51,026 nt of DNA from Thermoplasmata archaeon (GTDB taxonomy: Archaea; Thermoplasmatota; Thermoplasmata; Lutacidiplasmatales; UBA184). The first letter of the stretch is position 1. Each line of letters opens with the position of its first letter. A program made the translations under genes and the position numbers. Positions 34,933 through 42,304 of the stretch are shown piece by piece. Under the pieces are notes generated by a model. That model was not told where the DNA came from and ran no database searches. It saw nothing but the letters and a program-made list of their open reading frames with translations. The stretch lies in contig DAHUXZ010000016.1 in NCBI GenBank assembly GCA_027315455.1, forward strand, positions 1 to 51,026, read 5' to 3'.

Positions 34933-36345
34933 CTATCCGACGGCGCCGGCCATCTCGAGCTGGATGAGCCGGTTGAGCTCGAGGGCGTAGTCGACGGGGA
35001 GCTCCTTCGCGAACTCCGCAAGGAATCCCATCAGGATGAGATGGATCGCGTCGGACTCGTTGAGCCCCCGGCTCATCAGGTAGAAGATCTGCTCCTCGCC
35101 GATCTTCCCGACGACCGCCTCGTGGGTGATCGTCGCGTCCTCCGCGTGGATCTCGTTGTAGGGGTAGGTGTCCGAACGGCTCAGGTCGTCCGGGAGCAGC
35201 GCGTCGCACCGGACGGCCGCCTTGACCCCGGTCGCCCCCTTCGCGACGTGGAGGAGACCGCGGTAGCTCGTCTGGCCGCCGCGGATCGCGATCGACTTCG
35301 ATACGATCTTGCTCGAGGTGTCCGGCGCCGAGTGGACGGCCTTCGCGCCGCTGTCGATGATCTGGCCCTCGGAGGCGAACGCGACCGAGAGGATGTCCGC
35401 CCGGGCCCCGCGCCCGCGCAGGTAGACGGACGGGTACTTCATCGTGATCTTGCTACCCATGTTGCCGTCGACCCACTCGACGAGCGCGCCCTCCTGGGCG
35501 ACGGCGCGCTTCGTCACGAGGTTGTAGACGTTCTTCGACCAGTTCTGGACGGTCGTGTAGCGGATCTTGGCGTACGGCTCGGCGATGACCTCGACGACGG
35601 CGGCGTGGAGGGAGTCCGTCGAATAGATCGGCGCGGTGCACCCCTCGATGTAGTGGACCTTCGCGCCCCGGTCGGCGATGATCAGCGTCCGCTCGAACTG
35701 GCCGACGTTCTTCGCGTTGATGCGGAAGTACGCCTGGAGGGGGATGCCGGCGTCGACTCCCGGCGGGACGTAGACGAAGCTCCCCCCGGACCAGACGGCC
35801 GAGTTGAGGGCCGAGAACTTGTTGTCGTTGTACGGAACGATCTTGCCGAAGTACTTGCGGAAGATCTCGGTGTGCTCCTTGAGCGCCGTGTCGGTGTCGC
35901 AGAAGATGACCCCCTTCTTCTGGAGGTCCTCGCGGATCTTGTGATAAACGGTCCCGCTGTCGTACTGCGCCCCGACGCCCCCGAAGAAGTCCCGCTCGGC
36001 CTTCGGGATCCCGAGCTTCTCGAACGTGTTCTTGATGTCGGCCGGAAGGTCGTCCCAACTGCGCTTGGTCTCCCCCTCCGCGAGCGGGTTCGCGTAGTAG
36101 GTGTACGCCTCGAAGTCGATGTCGTCGAGCGACGGGCCCCAGTCGGGCATCGGGCGGTCGAGGAAGTGGGCGTAGGCGCGCAGGCGGTACTCCTGCATCC
36201 AGTCCGGCTCGCTCTTGAGCGCGGAGATCTGCTCGACGATGCGGCGGCTGAGACCGCGGTCGGTGCGGACCTTGTACGTCTCGGGGTTCTTGAAGTCGTA
36301 CCGCGTGTAGTCGAGCGGGGTGACCTCCTGGGCCGTCTGAGCCAT
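34933..36345 (-). CDS. sufB: SufB, Fe-S cluster assembly scaffold
   Basis: A 470-residue SufB. Highly conserved segments are present: KSEPDWMQEYRLRAY, SAVWSGGSFVYVPPGV, YRTTV-like PYAKIRYTTVQNWS, NMGSKITMKYPS, the HEAVVGKIGEEQIFYLMSRG region with the conserved Glu and His, and GFLAEFAKELP near the C-terminus. It is the subunit that accepts sulfur from SufS and assembles the cluster with SufC and SufD. It has its own TATA box (36379-36387), and the TSUP permease lies upstream on the same strand. A GGAAGG precedes the ATG. Confidence 0.95.
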   Translation of the reverse strand: MAQTAQEVTPLDYTRYDFKNPETYKVRTDRGLSRRIVEQISALKSEPDWMQEYRLRAYAHFLDRPMPDWGPSLDDIDFEAYTYYANPLAEGETKRSWDDLPADIKNTFEKLGIPKAERDFFGGVGAQYDSGTVYHKIREDLQKKGVIFCDTDTALKEHTEIFRKYFGKIVPYNDNKFSALNSAVWSGGSFVYVPPGVDAGIPLQAYFRINAKNVGQFERTLIIADRGAKVHYIEGCTAPIYSTDSLHAAVVEVIAEPYAKIRYTTVQNWSKNVYNLVTKRAVAQEGALVEWVDGNMGSKITMKYPSVYLRGRGARADILSVAFASEGQIIDSGAKAVHSAPDTSSKIVSKSIAIRGGQTSYRGLLHVAKGATGVKAAVRCDALLPDDLSRSDTYPYNEIHAEDATITHEAVVGKIGEEQIFYLMSRGLNESDAIHLILMGFLAEFAKELPVDYALELNRLIQLEMAGAVG

Positions 36346-36473: not shown

Positions 36474-37403
36474 CTACGGGCCGGAACCGCCGCCGATCGG
36501 GGCGGGCTCGTCGGTGAACCCGTGGATCCGCTCCCTGCGGCGCTCCTCGGCGGTCGCCCAGATGGTGGGGAGGCGGGCCAGGGCGCGGAAGGCGAGCAGG
36601 CCGATGGCGAGGACGCAGAGGAGGAGCAAGAGAAGTCCCTCCTGGCTCGTGAGCCACCCGACCGGGACCACGACGCGGTAGAGCCCGTAGCTTACGATGA
36701 GGCCGTCGACGGCCATCACGAGCCGCGAGAAGAAGTCGCGCGAGAGGCTCTGGAGGAGGAGCGTGCCGAGGGGGACGCCGACCAGGACCGGGAACAGGAG
36801 GACGGGGACGAGGCTGACCGAGGCCGGAGTGAACAGCCCGAGAGCGAGGTAGCTCACCGTCGTGAAGCTCGCCTCGGCGACCCGGATCTGGGACATCATG
36901 CAGCGGAACTCGGACTTCGCGAGCCCCTGGTTGCGCCAGAAGAGGGCGAGCGGGGGACCGGAGATGGTGGTGAGCGAATAGAGGAACCCGATCCCCGCCC
37001 CCACGCCCCCGGCGAGCGCCCGTTCCCGCACGATCCGCCGCTGGAACCCCATCAGCTGGAGAAGGGTGAGCGGGAGGAGAGCGGAGTAGACGAACACCCG
37101 GACCCCGATCGGCGCGATGAGCAGCAGTGCGACGCTCCCGACGAGGACGCCCGGGATGAGGCCGGCGATCACCGGGAGGGCCCGGCGGTACGTGGCCCGG
37201 AGGAACTTGCGCTCGCGGACGAGCATGACCACGTTGACCCCGAGCTCGACGAGGACGAGCGACGGGTTGAGGAGGCGGTTCGTGACCCAGAACAGCGCGA
37301 TCGGGGTCACGACGGAGGAGAAGCCGTAGCCCACCGCGCCGTTGAGGACCGCGGCGGCGAACGAGGTGAGCAGCAGTCCGATCGTGGTGGGCGAGAGGTC
37401 CAT
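36474..37403 (-). CDS. TSUP (TauE/SafE) family permease
   Basis: A 309-residue, eight-to-nine-TM transporter of the TauE/SafE family (AAVLNGAVGYGFSSV in TM1, GIGFLYSLTTISGPPLALF in the second half). Characterised members move sulfite, sulfoacetate or other anionic sulfur compounds. It lies between sufS and sufB on the same strand, so sulfur supply for the Suf system is a plausible inference. Own TATA-like TTAGATAC about 40 bp upstream. C-terminal tail is basic then Gly/Pro-rich. Confidence 0.8.
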   Translation of the reverse strand: MDLSPTTIGLLLTSFAAAVLNGAVGYGFSSVVTPIALFWVTNRLLNPSLVLVELGVNVVMLVRERKFLRATYRRALPVIAGLIPGVLVGSVALLLIAPIGVRVFVYSALLPLTLLQLMGFQRRIVRERALAGGVGAGIGFLYSLTTISGPPLALFWRNQGLAKSEFRCMMSQIRVAEASFTTVSYLALGLFTPASVSLVPVLLFPVLVGVPLGTLLLQSLSRDFFSRLVMAVDGLIVSYGLYRVVVPVGWLTSQEGLLLLLLCVLAIGLLAFRALARLPTIWATAEERRRERIHGFTDEPAPIGGGSGP

Positions 37404-37507: not shown

Positions 37508-38743
37508 TCACGCGGCGCGCCGGAACAGCGCCTCGGCCTTCGCGAGCGCGTCGAGCCAGGCGTCCAGGTCCGCGCGATCGTTGTAGAGGTACGGGCTGGC
37601 GCGGGAGAGCGCCGCGACCCCGAGCCGGTCCATCAGCGGCTGGGCACAGTGGTGCCCGCTGCGGATCGCCACGCCCTCGGCGTCCAGAAGGCTCGCCACG
37701 TCGTGGGGATGCAGACCCTCGAGCGCGAAGGAGAGGACCGCCTCCCGGTCGCGCGAGTCGGGCGGGCCGTAGATGCGTAGGCGACCGTCGAAGCGCGCCC
37801 GGGCCTGGGCGCGTGCGTACTCCTGGAGGTCCCGTTCGTGCGCGGCGAGCTCGTCCCATCCGACCGACTCGAGGTAGTCGAGGGCCCGGGCGAGCCCGTA
37901 GGCGCCGGCGATGTTCGGGGTCCCCGGCTCGAACCGCGCGGGCGGCTCCCGGTAGCTCACGCGGTCCTGGTGGACCTCCCGGATCATCTCGCCTCCCCCG
38001 AAGGCGGGCGGGAGGCGCTCGAGGAGCTCGCGGCGACCCCAGAGGACACCGATCCCCGTCGGGCCGAGCGTCTTGTGCCCGGAGAAGGCGAGGAGGTCGG
38101 CGCCGAGGGCCCGGACATCGATCGGCCGGTGCGGCGCGGATTGGGCAGCGTCGACGACGACGAGGGCCCCCGCGTCGTGCGCCCGATCCGCGATCGCCCG
38201 CACCGGGTTGACGGTCCCGAGGACGTTCGACACGTGGGTCAGCGTGACCACCTTCGCCGGGCGGGCCACGAGCGTCTCGACCTCCTCCTCGCGCAGGCGT
38301 CCGTCGTCGTCGATGTCGATGAACCGGAGGTCGATCCCGCGCCCCTCCCGGAGGAAGTGCCAGGGCACGATGTTGGAGTGGTGCTCCATCACCGTGGTGA
38401 CGACGCGGTCGCCGGGGCCGAGGACGGATCGGCCGAGGCTCGTCGCGACGACGTTGAGGGCCTCGGTCGTTCCGCGGACGAAGATGACCTCGCTCGGGTC
38501 GTCGGCATGGAGGAAGCGGGCCGTCCGTTCGCGGGCCGCCTCGTACGCCTCCGTCGCCTCCTCGCTGAGCGCGTAGACCCCGCGGTGGACGTTCGCGTTC
38601 AGGCGGGAGTAGAACTCGCCTTCCGCCTCGATGACGACCTTCGGCTTCTGGCTGGTCGCGGCCGAGTCGAGGTAGACGAGACGCTTTCCGTGGAAGGTCC
38701 GCGAGAGTATCGGGAAGTCCGCCCGCCGGCGCGCTACGTCCAT
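37508..38743 (-). CDS. sufS: Cysteine desulfurase SufS
   Basis: A 411-residue type II PLP-dependent cysteine desulfurase, taking sulfur from cysteine to leave a persulfide. PLP lysine Lys224 (SGHKTLGPTG), the His-rich VMEHHSNIVPW near 118-128, and the active Cys366 in RSGHHCAQ are all present. The short Cys loop is typical of SufS rather than IscS. Starts 28 bp after sufC, so the two are one operon. The C-terminus overlaps no neighbour. Confidence 0.94.
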   Translation of the reverse strand: MDVARRRADFPILSRTFHGKRLVYLDSAATSQKPKVVIEAEGEFYSRLNANVHRGVYALSEEATEAYEAARERTARFLHADDPSEVIFVRGTTEALNVVATSLGRSVLGPGDRVVTTVMEHHSNIVPWHFLREGRGIDLRFIDIDDDGRLREEEVETLVARPAKVVTLTHVSNVLGTVNPVRAIADRAHDAGALVVVDAAQSAPHRPIDVRALGADLLAFSGHKTLGPTGIGVLWGRRELLERLPPAFGGGEMIREVHQDRVSYREPPARFEPGTPNIAGAYGLARALDYLESVGWDELAAHERDLQEYARAQARARFDGRLRIYGPPDSRDREAVLSFALEGLHPHDVASLLDAEGVAIRSGHHCAQPLMDRLGVAALSRASPYLYNDRADLDAWLDALAKAEALFRRAA

Positions 38744-38771: not shown

Positions 38772-39548
<777 letters not shown>

Positions 39549-39637: not shown

Positions 39638-40285
39638 ATGAACTCGGTGGACCTGCGCATCGGCGAGGGCACGCGGGGTCGGATCATCGAGGAGCTCGCG
39701 ATCGCCCCTCGGACCGCCCGCGACCTCGCGAAAACGCTCGGGATCCAGGAGAGCGCGGCCCGGGGCCACCTCGACCGGCTCGAGGAGCGCGGGCTCGTCG
39801 TCCCGTCGTTCCGTCGCGAGGGGGTGGGGCGGCCGCGCAAGCGCTACCTGCTGACGCCCGAGGGCCACGAGCTGTTCCCCCGTCGCTACGAGATCCTGCT
39901 CGACTCCGTCGTCGAGGAGCTCCTCGAGCGCGAGGGCGAGGGCTACGCGGCGGCGCTGTTCGCCGAGGCCGCGCGGCGGATGGCCCGTCAGATCGCGGCC
40001 CAGGTGCCGGCGGGCAAGCCGGCGACGGACCGGGCGAAGGCGCTCACGGAGGCCCTCAACGACCTCGGCTTCCGGGCCACGGTCGCGCCGGGCGGCGACG
40101 GGTCGCTGCGGATCGTCCGGACGAACTGCGTCTTCCGCCACAATGCGCTCACGCATCCCTACCTCCTCTGCGACGTCTTCGACAAGCACCTCACCGAGGA
40201 GCTGCTCGGGCAGGTCGGCCTCGACATCGAAGATTCGATCGGGCGCGGGGGAATGCGGTGTTCTCACCTGATCCAATTGCGCTGA
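39638..40285 (+). CDS. sufR: SufR-type Fe-S-sensing transcriptional repressor
   Basis: A 215-residue DeoR/ArsR-like protein. Residues about 10-75 form a winged-helix (TARDLAKTLGIQESAARGHLDRLEE, GRPRKRYLLT). The C-terminal half has Cys164, Cys178 and Cys208 with H170/H173, a layout like SufR, where a [4Fe-4S] cluster controls suf repression. Start: GTG 39596 is in frame but upstream of the transcription start predicted from the TATA; ATG 39638 has GGGAGG 4 nt upstream and is preferred. It is divergent from sufC and lies 55 bp before the JAMM gene on the same strand, so sufR-JAMM-E1 may be one transcript. Confidence 0.85.
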   Translation: MNSVDLRIGEGTRGRIIEELAIAPRTARDLAKTLGIQESAARGHLDRLEERGLVVPSFRREGVGRPRKRYLLTPEGHELFPRRYEILLDSVVEELLEREGEGYAAALFAEAARRMARQIAAQVPAGKPATDRAKALTEALNDLGFRATVAPGGDGSLRIVRTNCVFRHNALTHPYLLCDVFDKHLTEELLGQVGLDIEDSIGRGGMRCSHLIQLR

Positions 40286-40340: not shown

Positions 40341-40853
40341 GTGAGGGGGAGATTCCTGAGCCCCGGTGCACGGGACTCGATCGCCGCCCACGGCCGGCGG
40401 GCCTACCCCGAGGAGGCCTGCGGCTTCCTCGTCGGGAAGGAGGTCGGCGGGATCGACACGCGCGGGATCGACCGGGCGATCGCCACCGAGAACGCGGCCG
40501 GCGTCGATCGCCGCCGGCGCTTCGTCATTCCGGCGGAAGAGCTGCGGACGGCCGAGGCGCGCCTCGTCGGCACGGGCGAGACGGTCCTGGGGTTCTACCA
40601 TTCGCATCCGGATGGACCGGGCCGACCGTCCGCGTTGGACGAGGCGGCCGCGTGGCCCGGCTACACCTACGTCGTGATCGGGGTCCGCGCCGGGCGCGCC
40701 GACGAGCCGGGCGCCTTCGAGCTGGATGCGATCACCGGTCGGCTCGACCCGGCACCCCTCGACGGCCCGGCCGGGATCGGGGTGGCTTCGGGGACCTCCG
40801 CGCCGCACTCCGAGCGCGTTTATGGCCCCCGGCCGAACGAGGGAACCGCATGA
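40341..40853 (+). CDS. JAMM/MPN+ metalloprotease
   Basis: A 170-residue JAB1/MPN domain protein. The zinc site is complete: Glu24/25 in YPEEACGF, and HSHPDGPGRPSALD with H87, H89, S97 and D100. JAMM proteases cleave isopeptide bonds or C-terminal extensions of ubiquitin-like proteins; bacterial Mec+ processes the sulfur-carrier CysO. The gene overlaps the next (ubiquitin-like/E1/rhodanese) by ATGA, so the two are coupled, which makes that neighbour's UBL domain the likely substrate. GTG 40341 is the assumed start. Confidence 0.85.
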   Translation: MRGRFLSPGARDSIAAHGRRAYPEEACGFLVGKEVGGIDTRGIDRAIATENAAGVDRRRRFVIPAEELRTAEARLVGTGETVLGFYHSHPDGPGRPSALDEAAAWPGYTYVVIGVRAGRADEPGAFELDAITGRLDPAPLDGPAGIGVASGTSAPHSERVYGPRPNEGTA

Positions 40854-42304
40854 CCGACGTCACGATGCGGGTCCCGAGCGCCTGGCGCGAGCTCGCCGGC
40901 GGTTCGGCCACGGTCACCGTGAGCGGCGCGACCGTGGGCGAGGCGCTCGAACGGTTCGTAGCGGATCATCCGGCGCTGCGCCGCCACCTCTTCACCCCCG
41001 AAGGTCGCCTGCGCTCGTTCGTGTCGCTCTACCTGAACGATACCGACACGCGGGAACGCGACGGGCTCTCGACATCGCTCGACGACGGCGACCGCCTCGC
41101 GATCGTGCCGGCGATCGCGGGAGGGGCGCCGGACGCCGAACCGGCCGCCCCGGGGGCCTCCCCCGTGATCCCGCTCTCCCGCGAAGAGCTGAAGCGGTAC
41201 AGTCGGCACCTGATCCTGCCCGAGGTCGGGGTCGCCGGCCAGAAACGCTTGCGGGACGCCCGGGTCCTGGTGGTCGGGGCGGGGGGTCTCGGGGCCCCGG
41301 CGACCCTCTATCTTGCCGCGGCCGGGGTCGGGGAGATCGGGCTCGTGGACTTCGACCGGATCGACACGTCGAACCTTCAGCGCCAGGTCCTCTACGCGAC
41401 GTCGCAGGTCGGCCGGCCGAAGACCGAGGCGGCCAAGCAGCGGCTCGAGGACCTCAACCCCGGCGTCACCGTCCGGACCTACGAGGAGAGCCTGGACCGG
41501 AACAACGCCCTGCGGATCCTTCGTGACTACGATGTCATCCTCGACGGGACGGACAACTTCCCCACCCGCTACCTCGTCAACGACGCGTGCGTGCTCCTCG
41601 GCAAGCCCGATGTCTTCGGCTCCGTCTACCGTTTCGAGGGTCAAGTGAGCGTCTTCGACGCCCACCGCGGACCCTGCTACCGCTGCCTCTACGCCGAGCC
41701 GCCCCCGCCCGGCGTCGTCCCGTCGTGCGCGGAGGGCGGAGTGCTCGGGGTGCTCCCCGGGCTCATCGGCCTCGTCCAGGCGACGGAGGCGATCAAGCTC
41801 CTGCTCGGCATCGGCGAGCCACTGATCGGCCGGCTGCTCCTGTTCGATGCACTGGGCATGCAGTTCCGGGAGCTCACGCTGCGCAAGAGCCCCGACTGCG
41901 TCCTCTGCGGGCCGCGGGCCACGCAGACGGAGCTCATCGATTATCCGGCGTTCTGCGGGATCGTTCCCGGCCCCGACGGCGCCAGCCTCCCCGAGGTCTC
42001 GCCCGAGGGTCTCGCCGAGGAGCTGCGAGGGGGGAGCCCGCCGGTGCTGGTCGACGTGCGGGAGCCCGGGGAATGGGCGATCGGCCACCTGCCCGGGGCA
42101 CGGCTGATCCCGCGGGCCGAGCTCGCCGAGCGGCTCACCGAGCTCGCGTCGGCCCCGGCGATCGTCGTCTATTGCAAGACCGGGGCCCGATCGGCGATGG
42201 CCCAGCGCCTCCTCCTCGACCTGGGGTTCGACCGGGTCCGGAACCTCCGCGGCGGGCTCGACGCCTGGGCGCGCCAGGTCGACCCGACGATGCCGGAGTA
42301 CTGA
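40850..42304 (+). CDS. MoaD/ThiS-like domain - MoeB/ThiF E1 - rhodanese fusion
   Basis: A 484-residue three-domain protein. Residues 1-92 are a beta-grasp sulfur-carrier domain ending VPAIAGG at 86-92, as in free MoaD; but here the chain continues through a Pro/Ala linker. Residues about 110-360 are an E1: GAGGLG (143-148), DFDRIDTSNLQRQ, VILDGTDNFPTR, Cys293 in PSCAEGG, and zinc cysteines C276, C279, C350, C353. Residues about 375-484 are a rhodanese with Cys442 in YCKTGARS. MoeB-rhodanese (MOCS3-like) fusions are known; in them the carrier is a separate protein. The internal Gly-Gly needs cleavage to be adenylated. The JAMM gene overlaps upstream. Could make molybdopterin, thiolated tRNA or a cysteine-type carrier; not decidable. 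Confidence 0.88.
   Translation: MTDVTMRVPSAWRELAGGSATVTVSGATVGEALERFVADHPALRRHLFTPEGRLRSFVSLYLNDTDTRERDGLSTSLDDGDRLAIVPAIAGGAPDAEPAAPGASPVIPLSREELKRYSRHLILPEVGVAGQKRLRDARVLVVGAGGLGAPATLYLAAAGVGEIGLVDFDRIDTSNLQRQVLYATSQVGRPKTEAAKQRLEDLNPGVTVRTYEESLDRNNALRILRDYDVILDGTDNFPTRYLVNDACVLLGKPDVFGSVYRFEGQVSVFDAHRGPCYRCLYAEPPPPGVVPSCAEGGVLGVLPGLIGLVQATEAIKLLLGIGEPLIGRLLLFDALGMQFRELTLRKSPDCVLCGPRATQTELIDYPAFCGIVPGPDGASLPEVSPEGLAEELRGGSPPVLVDVREPGEWAIGHLPGARLIPRAELAERLTELASAPAIVVYCKTGARSAMAQRLLLDLGFDRVRNLRGGLDAWARQVDPTMPEY

Follow-up and report, generated by a model that had tools for sequence, protein, structure and literature searches.

The window analysed here, a whole stretch of 51,026 nucleotides from a Thermoplasmata archaeon (contig DAHUXZ010000016.1 of assembly GCA_027315455.1; contig 7 of a 1.98 Mb genome, 94% complete), carries a JAMM/MPN+ metalloprotease gene that overlaps a gene fusing a sulfur carrier to an E1 activating enzyme and a rhodanese. 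We consider it likely that the two genes form a module for activating a sulfur carrier, which is synthesised as the N-terminal part of its own E1-rhodanese and has to be released by cleavage. Release of the carrier by the JAMM protease, followed by the action of E1 and rhodanese, had been proposed in a note made from the DNA letters alone (the original prediction), and comparison across genomes now strongly supports it. A JAMM of this type is present at 64 of 64 loci whose carrier has residues after its Gly-Gly (GG) motif and at 0 of 30 others (94 loci, leaving out L028, L040, L068, L085 and L086, whose JAMM status was not assignable).

The JAMM protease and its putative substrate

The two genes and their parts are arranged as follows; the coordinates of both genes, their overlap and Gly92 agree exactly with the original prediction.

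40341..40853, + strand: JAMM/MPN+ metalloprotease gene (GTG start, 170 amino acids; Prok-JAB PF14464, E = 2.9e-20)
40850..42304, + strand: carrier-E1-rhodanese fusion gene (484 amino acids; ThiS, ThiF and Rhodanese by Pfam)
40850..40853, + strand: ATGA overlap of the JAMM stop and the fusion start
40850..41125, + strand: MoaD/ThiS/SAMP1/CysO-like carrier domain, residues 1-92 (PF02597; SAMP1 model NF041918, 61.8 bits, cut-off 60)
41120..41125, + strand: Gly91-Gly92, with the putative cleavage site after Gly92
41126..41194, + strand: hypervariable linker, residues 93-115 (23 residues between GG and R116)
41198..41899, + strand: ThiF/MoeB-type E1 domain (C293 plus C276, C279, C350, C353)
42011..42274, + strand: Rhodanese domain, residues 388-475, with Cys442 (PF00581, 5.5e-20)

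The protease had been described as intact, and its metal and catalytic residues are all in place (E25, H87, H89, S97, D100), each of them invariant in 52 aligned JAMM proteins. At 72.7 bits against a cut-off of 25 it belongs to the Prok-JAB family, and its best sequence match in the PDB is 2kcq (2.7e-24). An AlphaFold2 (AF2) model, with a mean predicted local distance difference test (pLDDT) score of 87.5, has 2kcq, 2kks, Rpn11 and the PfJAMM1-SAMP2 complex 5lda among its top fold matches. The sole NCBIfam match is the Haloferax-type desampylase NF041370, where its 80.2 bits lie below the cut-off of 130 for membership.

In the fusion, Pfam delimits ThiS at residues 9-92 (2.3e-12), ThiF at 117-350 (6.7e-86) and Rhodanese at 388-475 (5.5e-20), the architecture originally proposed. 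The carrier is a beta-grasp domain of the MoaD/ThiS/SAMP1 kind, matching 3dwg_C of Mycobacterium tuberculosis (1.2e-14), but its GG is internal; no stop follows it, and a free C-terminal glycine would depend on cleavage. The remainder carries all the marks of a MoeZ/MOCS3-type E1-rhodanese, namely the E1 core, the paired cysteines, the E1 Cys and the rhodanese Cys. Its best NCBIfam match is MoeZ (495 bits, under the 647 cut-off), and it scores above the cut-offs of PRK08762 (484 vs 449) and PRK05690 (311 vs 266). The solved structures nearest to the E1 domain are Uba4 (6yub) and MoeB (1jw9), and C276, C279, C350 and C353 are the cysteines that we take to bind zinc.

Relatives were drawn from a scan of 84,980 genomes, the best 80 of 250 being kept. 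Of 61 related genomes, 48 gave a match, in some of them limited to the E1 or rhodanese part. The observation is far beyond chance, since the fusion is present in 24 of 37 genomes of the same genus and also on contigs titled as several bacterial phyla. Across the 50 fusions aligned, Pro87 never varies, nor do Gly91 and Gly92, whose conservation the original prediction required of orthologues; Ala90 is 98% conserved. C276, C279, C293, C350, C353 and C442 are likewise invariant in all 50. At positions 93-108 no single residue accounts for more than 40%, and the distance between GG and Arg116 ranges over 11-34 residues. Directly after GG, 45 of the 50 fusions have S, A, T or G (Ser 20, Ala 15, Thr 8, Gly 2, Val 2, Leu 1, Arg 1, Met 1). 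In the AF2 model of the fusion the carrier and E1 domains are confident and pLDDT falls below 50 at residues 90-105, so the junction after the carrier is predicted to be disordered. Genome G025 has two fusion copies (G025:C11:725307-726755 and G025:C6:3935-5356), each with a JAMM gene just upstream; the second may stem from another strain, as 6% contamination is listed.

Covalent state of the carrier and presence of the protease

Among the 37 same-genus genomes, all 24 with the fused carrier have a JAMM of this type, against 0 of 3 with a carrier split off after GG and 0 of 3 with an E1-rhodanese alone; seven were unassignable. G018 has TAA right after ALAGG, with the E1-rhodanese frame starting directly behind, and the only JAB found there is of a weaker second type. 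For G024 and G028, a stop right after GG and a missing JAMM had been predicted beforehand. Both were found: an in-frame TAG follows GG (SLGGG and ALSGG), and no Prok-JAB was detected at an E value of 0.001. A SufR homologue lies directly upstream of the carrier in these two genomes. No Prok-JAB was found in G004, G030 or G036, whose E1-rhodanese has no carrier. As to the seven unassignable genomes, the contig of G035 begins inside the E1 and holds one partial JAB, and the other six (G005, G012, G016, G023, G026, G034) have no E1 match, G012 matching in the rhodanese part only; a JAMM lies close to a contig end in G016 and G034, and second-type JABs or fragments occur in G005, G012, G023 and G026. 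The window genome (G000) itself has a second Prok-JAB gene (G000:C6:35086-35391; L132:3937-4470, - strand; 47 bits), with genes for inositol monophosphatase and radical SAM proteins nearby, and weaker JABs of like score are found in many same-genus genomes, some without the fusion (G005, G018, G023, G026).

The pattern recurs among the 97 loci left after merging 15 near-duplicates. The original prediction had called for a genome search for the JAMM-carrier-E1-rhodanese order. Where at least 2.5 kb of upstream sequence was available, JAMM lies upstream in 35 of 36 fused loci, compared with 0 of 16 E1-rhodanese loci without an adjacent carrier. The sole exception, L017, duplicates L102 of G009, and the JAMM of G009 lies beside a CysM gene on another contig. 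In G047 (L114) and G058 (L111), which offer only 1.5 kb upstream, JAMM is found about 4.5 kb downstream of the fusion. Carriers encoded by separate genes follow suit. JAMM and cysM are present in 5 of 5 loci whose carrier runs on for 2-6 residues beyond its final GG (L057, L058, L061, L066, L076), and in 0 of 6 ending exactly at GG (L040, L063, L071, L075, L081, L113), two of which have fewer than 500 bases upstream. A JAMM profile run over 40 genomes gave at least 136 bits in 16 of 16 with a fused or tailed carrier; in the 24 genomes with other carrier states (unfused E1-rhodanese) the best score was 28.1 bits, and none was of this type. Clustering of neighbours by raw open reading frames, in which many families looked out of frame in G+C-rich DNA, was used only for leads.

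When 99 E1 domains are placed on a maximum-likelihood tree, all three genomes split at GG group in one clade (100/97), and rows with the E1 only turn up at several points within the genus and among Gemmatimonadota. A quicker tree, of 94 rows, gives by parsimony 10 changes for the covalent state and 10 for the presence of JAMM, and the two match at each tip. With the labels shuffled, the average is 25.4 changes, which shows that the states are clustered on the tree; the p values of Fisher tests, which take loci as independent, are therefore overstated.

Several points weigh against this reading. The loci were picked by similarity to the window fusion protein, and the JAMM profile was built from the positive set, so that only its absences count as independent. 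The distinction between this JAMM type and the weaker second one was drawn on score and gene position. Absence in incomplete metagenome-assembled genomes can be false, and with a same-genus completeness of 56-100% single absences are weak. The window JAMM is only 25-48% identical to the other 51 aligned JAMM proteins and falls under the desampylase cut-off (80 vs 130). The rule is not universal: CysO of M. tuberculosis (3dwg_C), which we take to end in GG, aligns by its last residue with Gly92, yet this organism has Mec+ (PMC3227635), and a JAMM protease can thus serve adduct release alone. Finally, Jab genes were reported in 2010 to be rarely linked to ubiquitin-like (Ubl) genes in archaea (PMC2948915).

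Proposed sulfur relay, cysteine synthesis and alternative roles

In the mechanism that we favour, JAMM would first cleave after Gly92, within the flexible linker, yielding a carrier ending in Gly-Gly and a MoeZ/Uba4-like E1-rhodanese. The bond cut in the window fusion would be Gly-Ala, of the same kind as the Gly-Cys bond of the cysteine route. The carrier would then be adenylated by the E1, and Cys442 of the rhodanese, probably charged by a desulfurase such as the SufS-type neighbour, would yield the thiocarboxylate. The last step would hand the sulfur on to an acceptor. In most of the fused relatives examined this is probably the CysM-type cysteine synthase whose gene lies upstream, and there the JAMM would have a second bond of the Gly-X kind to hydrolyse, that of the carrier-cysteine adduct, like Mec+ on CysO.

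Upstream of the pair lie a regulator gene and, in opposite orientation, a suf cluster.

39638..40285, + strand: SufR-like winged-helix regulator with C-terminal cysteines (HTH_5), ending 55 bp before the JAMM start
38772..39548, - strand: SufC-like ATPase (ABC_tran; SufC name from context)
37508..38743, - strand: putative SufS-type cysteine desulfurase (Aminotran_5, 2.2e-139)
36474-37403: TauE/SafE sulfite exporter gene, between the SufS-type and SufB/D genes
34933..36345, - strand: SufB/D (SUFBD_core, 1.8e-80)

The neighbouring SufS-type enzyme is a plausible sulfur source for the rhodanese, and the gene order suggests iron-sulfur (Fe-S) control of the JAMM/fusion pair. The position 55 bp after a SufR-type gene, on which the original prediction had drawn, was exact; the best NCBIfam match of this SufR-like gene is SufR_cyano (TIGR02702), with 44.7 bits where the cut-off is 178.8. 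In the 43-row clade of the window fusion, 16 fused loci extend 2.5 kb or more upstream, and 15 of them have a SufR homologue there. A promoter scan, which covers sigma-70 sites only, found nothing. In eight Gemmatimonadetes loci (L024, L025, L029, L030, L032, L033, L047, L062) a rhodanese gene recurs upstream of cysM; in L029 PF00581 matches it in two stretches, and in L033 an Rrf2 domain precedes it, possibly marking another sulfur donor and Fe-S link.

The window genome has one ThiF-family gene above cut-off and four other carriers, all ending GG-stop: one MoaD-like (YSGG) beside MoaE, two SAMP2-like, one of which passes narrowly (27.9 vs 27), and one ThiS-like. A simple MoaD/molybdopterin module is rejected in view of the separate MoaD-like carrier beside MoaE. 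As only one E1 was found, it probably also serves the other carriers, including the free MoaD and SAMP2-like proteins; MoeZR of M. tuberculosis serves both MoaD and CysO (PMC3227635). The original prediction had considered that the pair could be a complete module; it is probably not self-contained, given the four other carriers, the single E1 and the cysM genes upstream in 29 of 36 fused loci. A separate functional MoaD/SAMP partner used by the E1 had been named as a refutation; the four other carriers come near to this, but do not refute release, since the fused carrier's own GG is kept.

A tentative extension, which we hold to be doubtful, is that the JAMM cut gates the carrier-dependent sulfur chemistry of the cell. 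The tethered carrier would occupy its own E1 until cut, and JAMM activity, possibly under the SufR-like Fe-S sensor, would decide when MoaD and SAMP2-like carriers get charged. Its reach to other carriers follows from the fusion being the only E1 found in the genome. If this is true, where cysM is present one JAMM would both mature the carrier and turn over its product.

The link with cysteine synthesis is found in the relatives. In most fused relatives the gene before JAMM encodes a pyridoxal phosphate enzyme, whose best family is TIGR01138 (cysM) in both cases tested, L057 above and L010 below the cut-off. With the same minimum of 2.5 kb of upstream sequence, cysM is also upstream in 29 of 36 fused loci and in 2 of 16 E1-rhodanese loci without an adjacent carrier; from the former count, the ancestral pathway was probably the CysM/CysO/Mec+/MoeZ cysteine route. 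There is no cysM in the window cluster, and the full CysM/CysO/Mec+/MoeZ set was not found in the window genome. At an E value of 1e-20, the window genome and its sister G007 have one PALP gene each, of the cystathionine beta-synthase type. That of the window genome (G000:C17:7352-8242; L134) is fused to a CBS domain and adjoins a Cys_Met_Meta_PP gene, an arrangement that suggests reverse transsulfuration; it is the only PALP gene over cut-off there, and no PALP-family threonine synthase was seen. At L051, L056 and L059, which have no adjacent cysM, JAMM is diverged, with weaker phmmer scores and an intact motif, perhaps reflecting a changed substrate range after cysM loss.

The occurrence of cysM and JAMM together upstream of 29 of the 36 fused loci, and the hydrolysis of CysO-Cys by Mec+ in M. 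tuberculosis (PMC3227635), would also fit a JAMM that is simply Mec+-like, freeing cysteine from a CysM-made carrier-cysteine adduct, with cutting of the fusion incidental or left to another agent. We regard this as improbable. The window genome and G007 keep JAMM, fusion and GG, and no such cysM was found in them. G010, G022 and G025 keep JAMM and fusion, and no cluster-type CysM was found among the PALP loci fetched for them (one 131-bit G022 match lies outside this set). Conversely, the genomes of L060 and L077 have cysM near an E1-rhodanese without an adjacent carrier and no JAMM of this type. Among loci without upstream cysM (at least 2.5 kb upstream), JAMM occurs in 6 of 7 fused loci and in 0 of 17 unfused. 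Cysteine release as the sole role of JAMM is rejected, since genomes in which no cluster-type cysM was found retain the protease; the retention of JAMM and fusion in the window genome and G007 indicates that maturation also seems to keep JAMM.

A ubiquitin-like modifier system, in which the E1 would conjugate the carrier to lysines and JAMM remove it, as in SAMP/UbaA/HvJAMM1, has a still smaller chance of being the explanation. The carrier passes the SAMP1 model, the desampylase is the only NCBIfam match of JAMM (below cut-off), the E1 reaches 336 bits against a cut-off of 450 for the SAMP-activating E1 UbaA, Cys293 is invariant, and Iyer 2006 predicted such a role for JAB-linked E1s (PMC1779556). 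However, the invariant rhodanese Cys442 and the cysM linkage favour sulfur transfer, and the absence of JAMM with unfused carriers would be left unexplained. A modifier role could hold alongside release. That the carrier is never cut, serving as a permanent E1 domain for regulation or E1 contacts with GG as a relic, is very improbable and was rejected: although Iyer 2006 makes a case for another function of the Ub-like domain fused to some ThiF proteins (PMC1779556), GG is invariant in 50 of 50 next to a freely varying, hypervariable linker, stops fall exactly after GG in three genomes, and JAMM presence tracks the fusion.

Known systems and implications

The quinolobactin sulfur carrier system QbsD/QbsE resembles the tailed split carriers found here, in that a JAMM protein trims the residues after GG; unlike the window fusion, it consists of separate genes and belongs to a siderophore pathway. 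In M. tuberculosis the thiocarboxylate of CysO comes from MoeZR, O-phosphoserine is the substrate of CysM, and Mec+ sets the cysteine free (PMC3227635). Alike in both are the GG carrier, the JAMM-class protease, the E1-rhodanese and, in most fused relatives, CysM. Here, by contrast, the carrier is fused before the E1-rhodanese and has no free C-terminus, and no such cysM was found in the window genome.

The original prediction knew of no such combination; this did not hold, since its elements are already described. Iyer 2006 reported operons of JAB, ThiS/MoaD and E1-rhodanese, with or without cysteine synthase (PMC1779556 Table 1 rows 4b/4c), and suggested that JAB could free fused ThiS/MoaD. 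The gene set, with or without cysteine synthase, is common to both. In rows 4b/4c, as far as the available parts of the paper go, the E1 is fused to rhodanese in bacteria only, with no carrier-E1-rhodanese fusion, and no test of the link between protease and fusion was found there. Archaeal MoaD-MoeBR fusions (cluster 356.3, 14 assemblies) were reported in 2024 (PMC11237513). These have the domains of the window fusion in one protein, there read as molybdopterin synthesis; no analysis of JAMM, cysM or GG for them was found in the available parts of that source. The same work describes MoaD-MoeB fusions in Thaumarchaeota and NC10 and states that the fused MoaD of MoaD-MoaE needs cleavage, and Ubl-E1 fusions have been reported in Thaumarchaeota (PMC2948915).

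Cleavage of carrier fusions is itself established for MoaE. MoaX is cut at Gly82-Ser83, and cutting is needed for its function (PMC4326299); Deinococcus DRJAMM cuts a carrier-MoaE fusion (PMC8832034); and HvJAMM1 cleaves a SAMP1-MoaE fusion in vivo, no cleavage being detected without GG (PMC4443979). All three have an internal Gly-Gly as here, and a JAMM protease cuts the last two. Their partner is MoaE, whereas here it is the activating E1 with its rhodanese, and the MoaX abstract names no protease. No paper on a JAMM/fusion rule was found in the open-licence literature, judged by titles and abstract openings. The rule linking covalent bond and protease thus appears to be new, the operons, the release idea, the MoaD-MoeBR fusions and the cleaved MoaD-MoaE fusions having been published already.

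An old suggestion, that JAB frees fused carriers, is thereby turned into a sharp, testable rule for this family: residues after GG go with JAMM, and a stop at GG goes without it. In the window a candidate substrate and its protease come ready paired, with sister genomes as natural controls. The CysO-type cysteine route is best known in actinobacteria, and our findings suggest that it is present in uncultured archaea. Maturation of a pro-carrier by JAMM, inside a metabolic sulfur pathway, would parallel the processing of ubiquitin precursors.

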